Positions 9,662 to 13,707 of a DNA stretch of 42,818 nucleotides are shown here, piece after piece. The notes beneath the pieces are model-generated. The model searched no databases and was not told the DNA's origin. It saw only the letters and a program-made list of their open reading frames with translations. Position 1 is the first letter of the stretch. The number at the start of each line of letters is the position of its first letter. The translations under genes were made by a program, and so were the position numbers. This DNA comes from Candidatus Omnitrophota bacterium. GTDB taxonomy: Bacteria; Omnitrophota; Gorgyraeia; Zapsychrales; Zapsychraceae. The DNA is taken from contig JAFGFL010000042.1 of assembly GCA_016931055.1 (NCBI GenBank), positions 1 to 42,818 of the forward strand, in the 5' to 3' direction.

Positions 9662-11401
9662 ATGCAACATTTAAAATTGGGCGAAATCCTGATCCAGCAA
9701 GGGCTCATTACTGAAAACCAGCTGAATACGGCCATTGAGCATCAACGCAAAGAGAAAGGCCGCATCGGTGAGGTCCTTATTAAACTGGGTATTATCACCG
9801 AAGAAAACATGACAACCGCGCTGGGCTCGCAACTTGGAATTCCCTATTATACTTCCGATAACATCGATCTGATGAGGCCCCAAAAAGACCAGAACCTGGA
9901 AAAATTGATACCGGCTGATTTCGCCAAAAAAAATTGCGTTCTGCCGATCTCAAAACACCTCAATTCACTGACCTGCGCCGTTCCCGACCCGCTGGACCTT
10001 CTCTTGCTTGATAACTTACGCAGGATTACGGGACATGAAATTAATCTCGTTGTCGCTCCGCAATCCATTATCTCAAATGCCATTGACAACTTTTATTTTC
10101 AGGGCAGTTCCCCGATTGACTCAAAACCAACGATGCTCAGCGATGCCGTTCAGAAATCCTACCATAAAAAAGACGAGCACCTAAAAACCGGCCCCAAAAA
10201 AACGCAGGAGACCGCTGAGCTCAGCTTGGACAAACTGATCGAAAGGGCGGAGGAAGCCCCTGTCATCAAACTTGTCGATTTGATCATCCGCCAGGCTATT
10301 GACGAGCGCGCCAGCGACATCCATATCGAACCCTTCGAGAACAAAATCAATTTGCGTTACCGCATTGACGGCCATCTTTATTTATTGCCGCCACCGGCGC
10401 CTCATTTGCATTTGCCCATCGTTTCGCGCATTAAAATCCTTGCAAGATTGGACATTGCCGAGAAGCGTCTTCCGCAAGACGGGGCTATTTCGGCAAAGCT
10501 GGAAGACCGTATGGTCGATCTCCGTGTTTCAACGGTCCCGACCATTTGGGGAGAAAAAGTCGTCATGCGCATCCTTGATAAAGGCGCTATCCCCCTTGAA
10601 TTGACGAGCCTGGGTTTCGACCCCAAACAAATTGACTCGTTGCGAAAAGCATTGTCTTATCCGTATGGCTTGTTTTTTGTGACCGGGCCAACCGGGAGCG
10701 GAAAATCAACGACCCTTTATGCCGCTGTCAATGAAACGATGGACCCCAAAAAAAACATTCTGACCGTCGAAGACCCTGTTGAATATAAGATTGAAGGCAT
10801 TAACCAAGTTGCCGTTAAACCCGATATCGGTTTGACGTTTGCAACCGCCCTTAAGGCCTTTCTTAGGCAGGACCCGGATGTTATCATGGTCGGAGAAACA
10901 AGGGACCTGGAAACAGCTTCTATTTGCGTGCGGGCAGCATTAACAGGGCACTTCGTATTAAGCACCCTGCACACCAATGATGCCGCCTCGGCCATTACAC
11001 GCCTTATGGACATCGGCATTCCCAACTATCTGTTGACACCATCGTTGGTTGCCATCATGGGACAACGGCTTGCCCGCAAACTCTGTCAAAAATGCAAAGA
11101 ACCTTATGAGCCATCTCCAGACCAACATGGAGGGATCATATTCAAAAGTGATCTTATTTACCGTCCCAAGGGGTGCGAAGAATGCAAGAATACCGGGTTC
11201 AAAGGCCGCATTGTCGTTGCCGAAGTGTTGATTGTCAATGACGAAATCCGCTCACTGATTTCTCGGTCCGCCACCGCCGGTGAATTAAAAGACTGCGCGA
11301 GAAAGAACGGCATGTTGACCATATTTGATTCGGGCATCAAGCTGGTGGAAAAGGGATTAACGAGCTTCGATGAGGTCTGCCGCATCAGTGTCGAAGGATA
11401 A
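9662..11401 (+). CDS. pilB: Pilus extension ATPase (PilB/GspE) with MshEN domain
   Basis: 579 aa. Residues 5-28 and about 35-58 are two MshEN motifs in tandem (KLGEILIQQGLIT.., RIGEVLIKLGIIT..), a domain known in MshE-type ATPases to bind c-di-GMP. The catalytic part has Walker A GPTGSGKST (about 342-350), an Asp box with TVEDPVEY, Walker B DVIMVGETRD (about 405) and the His box HFVLSTLHTNDA. A four-cysteine zinc knuckle, CQKC and CEEC, lies near residues 474-508. It drives pilus or pseudopilus assembly in the cytoplasm. pilC follows 18 bases later. Confidence 0.95.
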   Translation: MQHLKLGEILIQQGLITENQLNTAIEHQRKEKGRIGEVLIKLGIITEENMTTALGSQLGIPYYTSDNIDLMRPQKDQNLEKLIPADFAKKNCVLPISKHLNSLTCAVPDPLDLLLLDNLRRITGHEINLVVAPQSIISNAIDNFYFQGSSPIDSKPTMLSDAVQKSYHKKDEHLKTGPKKTQETAELSLDKLIERAEEAPVIKLVDLIIRQAIDERASDIHIEPFENKINLRYRIDGHLYLLPPPAPHLHLPIVSRIKILARLDIAEKRLPQDGAISAKLEDRMVDLRVSTVPTIWGEKVVMRILDKGAIPLELTSLGFDPKQIDSLRKALSYPYGLFFVTGPTGSGKSTTLYAAVNETMDPKKNILTVEDPVEYKIEGINQVAVKPDIGLTFATALKAFLRQDPDVIMVGETRDLETASICVRAALTGHFVLSTLHTNDAASAITRLMDIGIPNYLLTPSLVAIMGQRLARKLCQKCKEPYEPSPDQHGGIIFKSDLIYRPKGCEECKNTGFKGRIVVAEVLIVNDEIRSLISRSATAGELKDCARKNGMLTIFDSGIKLVEKGLTSFDEVCRISVEG

Positions 11402-11419
11402 CACGATAAGGACAATGAA

Positions 11420-12649
11420 ATGACAAGGTTTTCTTATACCGTTAAAGATAAATCCGGGAAAACAATAAAAGATTCGGCTGAGGCCGCCAGCCGAAGCATC
11501 CTGATTGAAAAACTCCAGCAGCAAGGATTCTTTATTGTTGAGGTTACCGATGCCATCTCGTCTAGACCTGTCTTTGTAAAGAAATCAAAAAAAGCGGCCA
11601 GAAAATTCCATCGCAAAAAAATCAAATTAAACGACCTTGTGTCTTTTTCACGGCAACTTGCCACCATGCTCGAGGCCGGCGTTCCCTTGATCCGCAGCAT
11701 CTCCGTCATTGAATCTCAAATCGAAAGCAAGGAATTTTCGCGCGTGATTGCGGATGTCCAAAAGAACGTGGAGCAGGGGGCTTCCTTGAGTTTGGCTTTA
11801 GCGGCGCATCCTAAAGTTTTCAGCCAATTTTGGGTCAGCCTGATCGAAGTCGGAGAGGCCTCTGGGACGATCCCCAAGACTTTAGACAAACTCGCCTTTT
11901 ACCTGGAACAACAGGCTTCCTTCCGCTCAACCATCATCTCCGGCATCATCTATCCGTCCATACTGTTTTCAGTTTGTGTCGGCGCCATCGCATTCTTTGC
12001 CTTGGTCGTCGGCCCGAAATTTAAAACAATCTTCGAATCGATGGGCGCAGACCTGCCGTGGATTACAAATACCTTACTGGCTGTTTTTGAGTTGATTAAG
12101 AAAAACATTCTTTTCATCTTCTTTGGGATTGCCGCAGCGATTATCTTTTTCAGAAAATTTGTAAGAACGCACGCGGGAAAGTTCATGTTTGAGAAATTCC
12201 TGTTTCGCCTGCCTACGATCGGTGAAATTTTTAAGCTGATCATCGTTGAAAGATTCTCTTCGCAAATGTCTCTTCTGGTAGACAGCGGCGTCCCGATCCT
12301 TTACGCTTTGGACATTACCGAGCGCCTGGTTGACAACATCACCTGCGCCCTTATCATTTCCGACATCAAAGAATCCGTCAAACAGGGGGAACTTCTGGTG
12401 GCCTCTATGGAGCGCAGCGAATTTTTCCCAACCATGTGCATCCAAATGATCACAGTGGGAGAAGAAACCGGTGAACTGAGCAAGATGCTTAAACATATCG
12501 CCGCCTACTACCAGGAAGGCGTGGAGACATTCATGAAACGTTTTGCCACCATTATCGAACCGTTTATGCTTGTTTTTATGGGGGCTATTATCGGGACAAT
12601 CGTAGTCGCGATGTTTCTACCGTTGTTTAACCTTTCACAGTTGGGATGA
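11420..12649 (+). CDS. pilC: Inner-membrane platform protein (PilC/GspF)
   Basis: 409 aa, the family length. An N-terminal FSYTVKDKSGKTIK segment is followed by two T2SSF domains, each ending in membrane helices. Marker motifs are FSRQLATMLEAGVPL (about residue 75) and FSSQMSLLVDSGVPIL (about 278), the paired repeats of the family. Its last helix (MLVFMGAIIGTIVVAMFLPLF) is the best-conserved part of GspF. It receives motion from the ATPase and handles pilin subunits. It is the last gene before the 626-base leader region. Confidence 0.95.
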   Translation: MTRFSYTVKDKSGKTIKDSAEAASRSILIEKLQQQGFFIVEVTDAISSRPVFVKKSKKAARKFHRKKIKLNDLVSFSRQLATMLEAGVPLIRSISVIESQIESKEFSRVIADVQKNVEQGASLSLALAAHPKVFSQFWVSLIEVGEASGTIPKTLDKLAFYLEQQASFRSTIISGIIYPSILFSVCVGAIAFFALVVGPKFKTIFESMGADLPWITNTLLAVFELIKKNILFIFFGIAAAIIFFRKFVRTHAGKFMFEKFLFRLPTIGEIFKLIIVERFSSQMSLLVDSGVPILYALDITERLVDNITCALIISDIKESVKQGELLVASMERSEFFPTMCIQMITVGEETGELSKMLKHIAAYYQEGVETFMKRFATIIEPFMLVFMGAIIGTIVVAMFLPLFNLSQLG

Positions 12650-12804: not shown

Positions 12805-12833
12805 TTGACAACCTAAAGTTCATGTGTTATACA
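12805..12833 (+). promoter_or_regulatory. Strong sigma70-type promoter of the pilin riboswitch transcript
   Basis: Consensus TTGACA (12805-12810), exact 17-base spacer, TATACA (12828-12833). The expected transcript start is about 12840, roughly 70 bases before the riboswitch. The leader between them can form two small hairpins (CTCC/GGAG at 12866-12884 and CTCTC/GAGAG at 12891-12907). The 155 bases between the pilC stop and this promoter are AT-rich and show nothing else. Confidence 0.75.
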
Positions 12834-12910
12834 TTCTGTAGAGTGTAAGTTTGCTGTTGTAAACGCTCCATAGCTTAATTGGAGGGTTGTCTCTCGTTAT
12901 AAGAGAGATC

Positions 12911-13038
12911 AAAGGTAAACTACCTGCAAGGGTAGGACACAAAGCTATCCCGCCCGCTCAAATTCGTTGAGGTCGGGGCCTCAGGCATAAAGCCGGGGAA
13001 GGGTCCAGTAAATGATAACTGGATAGCCAGCTGCCAAA
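12911..13038 (+). promoter_or_regulatory. c-di-GMP-I (GEMM) riboswitch with enlarged P3 arm
   Basis: Matches the c-di-GMP-I aptamer. The opening AAAGGTAAAC (12911-12920) leads into hairpin CTACCT-GCAA-GGGTAG (12920-12935) with a GNRA tetraloop, then GGACACAAAGCTA, the family's GGACGCAAAGC block. Near the 3' end GATAGCCAGCTGCC closes it: GCTA (12944-12947) pairs with TAGC (13024-13027), and GGTA (12914-12917) with TGCC (13032-13035). TCCAGT/ACTGGA (13004-13009/13018-13023) is the usual P3 tip. Unusual: about 50 bases are inserted in P3 (12948-13000), able to form their own hairpin (12953-12961/12967-12977). The ligand call rests on family resemblance. The pilin gene downstream fits the known targets of this class. 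Confidence 0.85.
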
Positions 13039-13050
13039 AGCGAACATTTG

Positions 13051-13083
13051 TGCCTATTCTGCAGGTAAAGAATAGGCTTTTTT
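13051..13083 (+). terminator. Intrinsic terminator, riboswitch expression platform
   Basis: GCCTATTCT (13052-13060) pairs perfectly with AGAATAGGC (13069-13077), loop of 8 bases, followed by six Ts (13078-13083). It starts about 15 bases after the aptamer, the classic position of a transcription-control platform. The loop is complementary to the aptamer (see findings). The next 190 bases to the pilin have no recognised element apart from the ribosome-binding site AAAGGAG. Confidence 0.85.
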
Positions 13084-13275: not shown

Positions 13276-13707
13276 ATGAATATGAAATCAAACAAGTGCG
13301 GTTTTACGCTGCTCGAAATCATCATTGTCATTATCATCGTCGGCGTGTTGGCCAGTTTAGCGCTTCCTCGGTTATTTAACACAATCAACTACTCAAGGTC
13401 GACAGAAGCCCTCAACGCTATCGGCGTCCTTAAGCGAGGTGCCGATCTTTGCGCAATGGCTGTTGAAGCTACTGGCGGCGGTGCTGGGCAATACGGTCAA
13501 TGCGATACGTTCGCCGAAATCGGCATTGAAGACCCAGGCACACAGGTAGGCGCCAACTTCACTTATGCGATTAATGCTTTTGCGTCTCCCAATTGGGTCG
13601 TTGTCGCTACAGATGTGGGTGGCGCCGGAACGATTACCTTCACGTATAATACTCTTACTGGCGCAATAACACGTGTGGGTACCGGATCATTTACAGCGCT
13701 CAAATAG
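13276..13707 (+). CDS. pilA: Major type IV pilin / pseudopilin
   Basis: 143 aa. Prepilin peptidase site KCG|FTLLE, with the glutamate at +5, then the hydrophobic helix IIIVIIIVGVLASLALPRL. The C-terminal head is rich in glycine and contains two cysteines (LCAM and YGQCDTF) that could form a disulfide. SD GGAG lies 8 bases before the ATG. As the first gene behind the riboswitch and terminator, followed by a strong hairpin, it is likely the abundant subunit. GspG and PilA are hard to separate here; the symbol is provisional. Confidence 0.88.
   Translation: MNMKSNKCGFTLLEIIIVIIIVGVLASLALPRLFNTINYSRSTEALNAIGVLKRGADLCAMAVEATGGGAGQYGQCDTFAEIGIEDPGTQVGANFTYAINAFASPNWVVVATDVGGAGTITFTYNTLTGAITRVGTGSFTALK

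Follow-up and report, generated by a model that had tools for sequence, protein, structure and literature searches.

A c-di-GMP-I (GEMM-I) riboswitch of an Omnitrophota bacterium probably acts as an OFF switch for a type IV pilin operon, with an insert in its P3 helix that would represent a two-hairpin expansion segment. The evidence for this comprises the homology of the aptamer, the insert and its twin-hairpin topology, the covariation of the insert stems, the presence and absence of the insert among orthologues, and the complementarity of antiterminator and terminator. By its twin-hairpin insert the RNA departs from the known riboswitch class, and many GEMM-I switches of Omnitrophota have the same module, located in P2, J2/3 or P3. 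The window (the whole 42,818 nt stretch of contig JAFGFL010000042.1 that was analysed) contains the following features of the locus:

9662–11401, + strand: PilB-type ATPase with an MshEN domain (PF05157), by domain match
11420–12649, + strand: PilC/GspF homologue (PF00482), upstream of the riboswitch and used as orthology anchor
12805–12833, + strand: putative promoter, -35 TTGACA (12805–12810), 17 nt spacer, -10-like TATACA (12828–12833), from the sequence
12849–12855 (GUUUGCU) with 13039–13045 (AGCGAAC), + strand: tentative P1 of 7 bp, by itself within the reach of chance
12862–12888, + strand: leader hairpin 1, by folding
12889–12909, + strand: leader hairpin 2, by folding, abutting leader hairpin 1
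12914–12919, + strand: 5′ strand of the aptamer core, GGUAAA, from the sequence, covarying with GGC/GCAAAG in other copies
12920–12935, + strand: P2 hairpin CUACCU-GCAA-GGGUAG with GNRA tetraloop
12923–12943, + strand: predicted antiterminator 5′ strand (P2 3′ half and J2/3), complementary to 13047–13065
12936–12944, + strand: J2/3, GACACAAAG, with the equivalents of C44 (12938) and A47 (12941), uninterrupted in the window copy
12943–12947, + strand: 5′ strand of the P3 lower helix, AGCU and a bulged A, pairing with 13029–13032 (AGCU), from insert-less homologues
12948–12978, + strand: insert hairpin 1, outer stem UCCCG...CGGGG, by fold and covariation
12979–12998, + strand: insert hairpin 2, CCUC.GGC...GCCGGGG, by fold and covariation, abutting hairpin 1
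13001–13028, + strand: P3 upper helix, GGGUCCAGU...ACUGGAU-AG-CC, with the G83 equivalent (13026), from alignment A3 and the lineage model
13029–13035, + strand: 3′ strand of the P3 lower helix, AGCU, and the C92 equivalent (13034), from the alignment and the lineage model
13047–13065, + strand: predicted antiterminator 3′ strand, overlapping the 5′ arm of the terminator
13052–13083, + strand: intrinsic terminator, GCCUAUUC...GAAUAGGC-U6, by terminator scan
13276–13707, + strand: type IV pilin-like ORF (N_methyl, PF07963), with which the operon under control begins

An interrupted GEMM-I aptamer below the Rfam threshold

Positions 12909–13035 constitute a GEMM-I aptamer, as the initial annotation had proposed, and were found whole (43.7 bits, E 1.1e-8) by a lineage covariance model (R1, alignment A4) built from 12 insert-free Omnitrophota GEMMs; nothing else in the window reached E<=10 with this model. 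With filters off, the same model matched the aptamer as two halves, one on each side of the insert. The RF01051 score over this region was 33.5 bits, below the gathering threshold of 35 bits, which is a detection cut-off and no structural feature, and RF03167 (c-di-GMP-I-GGC), the cut-off of which is 59 bits, scored 29.7; because of the insert, the Rfam models align the 5′ half alone and misplace the 3′ half. Against RF01051, the insert-less orthologue of the sister species (L037) scored 57.4 bits; the lack of a significant RF01051 match that the initial annotation named as refuting evidence was thus nearly obtained by the letter, solely since the insert breaks the Rfam alignment. Only 10/20 insert-bearing loci tested gave a c-di-GMP-I match at the Rfam cut-off, and because inserts lower Rfam scores in this way, c-di-GMP regulons are under-annotated in Omnitrophota, and perhaps in other lineages. 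Matches to tRNA, freshwater-2 and serC at a low Rfam threshold were dismissed as chance or unrelated.

The equivalents of the ligand-contacting nucleotides are in register (G20 = G12914, A47 = A12941, C92 = C13034), with a G20-A47 spacing of 27 nt equal to that of Vc1 G12/A39, and the J2/3 register was fixed against Vc1 G12/C36/A39. G20, A47 and C92 contact the ligand in Vc2/Vc1, where the G20-A47 spacing is also 27 nt (PMC4744006). The interhelical C44-G83 pair corresponds to C12938-G13026, and the 21-46 and 22-45 pairs correspond to G12915-C12940 and U12916-A12939, the U-A pair covarying with C-G in paralogues. The window RNA shares with the c-di-GMP-I type member, Vibrio Vc2 (GEMM-I, RF01051), the core GG(Y)AAA, the GNRA-looped P2 (a GCAA tetraloop, as initially described), P3, the G20/A47/C92 and C44/G83 equivalents and a terminator-based expression platform, but differs in its twin-hairpin insert and sub-threshold Rfam score, and in the absence from P3 of the classic CUAAG/UAUGG tetraloop receptor, which insert-free paralogues scoring >60 bits lack as well. 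RF03167 was the best-scoring Rfam model for the window RNA and several paralogues, yet far under its cut-off, and its Rfam consensus has G where the window RNA has A12941, the A47 equivalent.

Scores under the gathering cut-off could also be expected of a decayed GEMM without a working aptamer, its P3 disrupted by the insertion, but the window RNA retains every ligand-contact residue, an intact P2, the two helices of P3 and a complete antiterminator and terminator, the insert itself covaries and the 3′ half matches the lineage model again after the insert, which makes such decay very unlikely. The cGAMP riboswitches (GEMM-Ib) have an A in place of G20; the window RNA has G at the aligned residue (G12914), with canonical A47 and C92 equivalents, and because of this G we infer c-di-GMP to be the ligand. 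Recognition of the other dinucleotide, 3′,3′-cGAMP, is a most improbable alternative, although Geobacter GEMM-I relatives controlling pili do respond to it (PMC9262584), since cGAMP-responsive members have a changed pocket residue (PMC9481103).

The P3 insert and its stems

The initial annotation recorded about 50 extra bases in P3, which amount to 51 nt (12948–12998) by comparison with insert-less orthologues, and it rightly regarded a compact P3 as normal for the known GEMM class. The insert lies in the P3 5′ strand between the lower (AGCU/AGCU and A) and upper (GGGUCC...) helices, and its edges are clean relative to ten insert-less PilC-locus orthologues, nine of which are taken into alignment A3, with no disruption on either side. 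It had been read as a single extra arm, but instead folds as two hairpins (12948–12978 and 12979–12998) which abut without a linker. Among 12 relatives with P3 inserts (stem alignment of 8 rows), 6/12 outer pairs were changed on both sides, which was equalled in 0/500 shuffles, and hairpin 1 had such both-side changes in 3/6 of its outer pairs. Shifting the pairing partners along the stem alignment abolished the covariation signal. Outer pairing in hairpin 1 is not perfect throughout, a few members deviating, and 89.6% of the cells are paired.

Gain and loss at the PilC-pilin locus

At the PilC-riboswitch-pilin locus, the insert is present in 5 species and absent in 10, and a PilC tree comprising 20 sequences requires at least three changes of this state on well-supported branches. 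The sister species (L037), the PilC of which is 75% identical to that of the window, has no insert, and L052 has none although it is placed within the clade of L038, L065 and L040. The insert-less orthologues align unchanged on both flanks, as for a removable expansion segment.

Twin-hairpin inserts across Omnitrophota

The host genome, a MAG of 2.2 Mb that is about 89% complete, contains 11 GEMM-I aptamers (two appear split in the search table), of which 4/11 bear an insert: the window aptamer (P3), L008 (P2 5′ strand), and L010 and L012, where the insert directly follows C44 in J2/3. Tandem aptamers were considered for L010/L013 and L011/L012 and rejected, each being a single aptamer split by a J2/3 insert.

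Across 285 Omnitrophota genomes we verified about 70 inserts from many families (about 40 in J2/3, 16 in P2 and 13 in P3), all read from MAG assemblies, with uninterrupted GEMM cores in 200/285 genomes. These insert counts are lower bounds, since the pattern scans had limited length ranges (J2/3 6–96 nt, P2 24–64 nt, P3 34–64 nt) and fixed core motifs. Comparison with other members, which the initial annotation had recommended, revealed P3 twin-hairpin inserts in relatives and a phylum-wide pattern at three sites, with inserts that measure 32 to about 100 nt. When the inserts were folded alone, as MFE folds, 31/40 J2/3 inserts formed a pair of outer helices that left no more than 2 nt unpaired, versus 1.1 expected from dinucleotide shuffles; of the remaining nine, L154 and L308 had been truncated in parsing at a GCAAA inside the insert, L264 folds in an alternative way, and the others are two hairpins by inspection. 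The same topology was obtained for 15/16 P2 inserts (0.35 expected from shuffles), the ends of which were chosen to give the best host hairpin, with ties going to the fewest unpaired nt, a slight bias towards the observed set, and for 12/12 P3 sequences. Within a homologous J2/3 insert family, 11/29 pairs covary.

Single-hairpin inserts were absent from J2/3 in the range of 6–35 nt in 285 genomes, where every match of the scan was a short twin (L307, L314), the beginning of a longer twin or no GEMM at all (L306, L308 and L312 inspected), and from P2 with loops of 24–33 nt in 193 genomes. Spacers in P3 were either 0–3 nt or twins of >=53 nt, besides a few mis-parsed long loops. In viral contigs, relaxed patterns gave no J2/3 inserts of 30–60 nt and only roughly 20 uninterrupted GEMM cores, and strict-pattern GEMM scans gave no match. 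No description of such inserts was found in the open-access literature, subscription journals being outside the scope of the search.

One locus (L017, G002:C225, 284–660) contains tandem GEMM aptamers, both with homologous J2/3 twin-hairpin inserts, and is a duplicated insert-bearing aptamer. In a recognisable J2/3 insert family (L010, L035, L147 and L264), hairpins 1 and 2 each have 3x3 internal loops (GAA/GAA or UUC/UAC) and resemble mutual reverse complements.

Proposed origin and role of the inserts

Four-way junctions can keep a host helix stacked, with the new helices stacked on each other, and a single hairpin creates a linker-less three-way junction which puts strain on the host helix. 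Because the linker-less hairpin pair is on one strand between paired parts of P3, it would form a four-way junction in which the host helix is able to stay stacked, and such stacking at the insert is likely. The term perfect four-way junction applies strictly to P2 only, because a continuous helix is interrupted by the P2 inserts alone, those of J2/3 being located at an internal loop and that of P3 at a bulge. Since both insert hairpins are folded in either predicted state of the switch and lie outside the switching pairs, the insert is presumably close to neutral: the switch would tolerate it or be tuned slightly by it, and it would not serve as a further sensor.

The initial annotation had suggested that the added domain could bind something else. 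Such a second functional domain, either an extra sensor or a protein- or sRNA-binding arm, would add an input or tune affinity by its own contacts, and would account for insert stems being kept through compensatory changes, because of which the insert structure appears to be under selection in at least some lineages, and for the sequence shared by P3 inserts of the window's family (UCCCGACGUUCCAG...). It is nevertheless improbable, as no conserved loop, receptor or sequence motif was seen between inserts, the insert lengths vary widely, and the insert is missing in the sister species and ten same-locus orthologues.

The inserts could also be remnants of small mobile palindromic elements (non-autonomous IS200/IS605 or REP-type), of which structure-preserving insertions alone survive. 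Such units end in two hairpins and insert without target duplication, which matches the two hairpins, the clean junctions with no obvious target duplication and the patchy presence of the inserts; furthermore, the arms of hairpins 1 and 2 resemble each other more than expected by chance (3.51 vs 3.02 ± 0.11), and a Y1_Tnp (IS200-like) gene is located directly downstream of the P2-insert riboswitch L008. We consider this origin unlikely, since the window insert occurs only once in its genome, where the next-best match is 15 nt, the insert sequences are mostly unrelated, and the host nucleotides preceding the three sites differ (GAC, GCUA, AAACC/U).

For the expansion segments favoured here, the accretion model provides the general frame (PMC12974513), and we tentatively suggest, at somewhat less than even confidence, that Omnitrophota aptamers still grow by RNA accretion, in which abutting hairpin pairs, never singles, would enter the 5′ strand of host helices at few permitted sites, with unrelated sequences, and could be lost cleanly. 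Insertions in rRNA employ three- or four-way junctions, and Halococcus morrhuae 5S rRNA and the rRNA/RNase P expansion segments likewise take up an insert at a four-way junction and leave the parent RNA as it was. Expansion segments are known from the large ribosomal and RNase P RNAs, whereas the Omnitrophota cases are small regulatory aptamers in which the inserts are many, occur at three sites and are present or absent among orthologues. Domain gain in RNA has been argued mainly on the basis of rRNA and RNase P, the insertions of which are old and difficult to test; in Omnitrophota a short RNA whose response to ligand can be measured has this type of insertion in some 70 cases, and the natural pairs with and without insert at the same locus are a test bed for structured RNAs growing new parts. 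The rule of two hairpins or none is a sharp prediction, open to binding and termination assays.

Predicted control of the pilin operon

The terminator at 13052–13083 and the pilin-like first gene bear out the intrinsic terminator and the placement before a pilin operon that were initially annotated. Without ligand, the P2 3′ half and J2/3 (12923–12943) would pair with 13047–13065 and block the terminator; with c-di-GMP bound, the aptamer would hold P2 and J2/3, the terminator would form and pilin transcription would stop. From this antiterminator/terminator pair c-di-GMP is therefore predicted to repress pilin transcription, an OFF direction that depends on the modelled folds. The antiterminator duplex has a predicted energy of -24.7 kcal/mol, and the complementarity of wider regions (-27.1 vs a null of -10.6 ± 2.8 kcal/mol) was reached in 0/1000 shuffles. 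The MFE structure is the antiterminator form (-62.4 vs -56.7 kcal/mol with P2 and terminator enforced), a gap that leaves out tertiary contacts and ligand. Similar antiterminator complementarity is present in the PilC-locus orthologues, as judged by eye. Locus L001 differs, as its P1-side strand itself makes the terminator, which from its sequence is as expected of an ON switch.

Geobacter metallireducens pilM and C. difficile Cd1 likewise represent GEMM-I control of pilus or motility genes, with Cd1 also being an OFF switch with antiterminator and terminator and pilM, unlike the window RNA, a cGAMP ON switch; the descriptions consulted mention no insert in either. The host genome has 13 GGDEF matches. 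The MshEN domain binds c-di-GMP, and since PilB carries this domain, c-di-GMP possibly acts at the protein level too, so that this pilus may be controlled at both RNA and protein level.

The promoter, initially described as near-perfect, has a perfect -35 (TTGACA), whereas the -10 (TATACA) matches at 4/6 positions and a consensus scan did not return the promoter; TG-N-TATACTT-like boxes are found in other GEMM leaders of the same genome. Both of the 5′ leader hairpins noted initially are real by folding, and they abut; the sister-species locus L037 has a homologous leader hairpin pair in the same place. These hairpins (12862–12909), which the tentative 7 bp P1 would enclose, are a possible fourth twin-hairpin insertion site.

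Additional sequence features near the riboswitches

In several orthologues without leader hairpins, the P1 helix ends 6 nt before the core. Members of the genus (L007, L022, L023 and L028) have a conserved GEMM with a P3 tip extended by about 60 nt, starting CCUAAAUUGUCUGAUACCUAAAAGGCCC. At L008 (28–1338, - strand), and also at L021 and L025, the P2-insert riboswitch precedes a gene for a Y1_Tnp domain protein (IS200-like, RAYT-like) that is extended by a long C-terminal part, and two GTGCCAGGCAC palindromes are located between the riboswitch and the Y1_Tnp gene. The protein may be domesticated, as it apparently lacks the usual histidines of the HUH motif. Palindromic repeats (AUUUAUGGAGCGA...AGCGAACAUAAAU) also follow several riboswitch terminators in the genus (L004, L005, L026).
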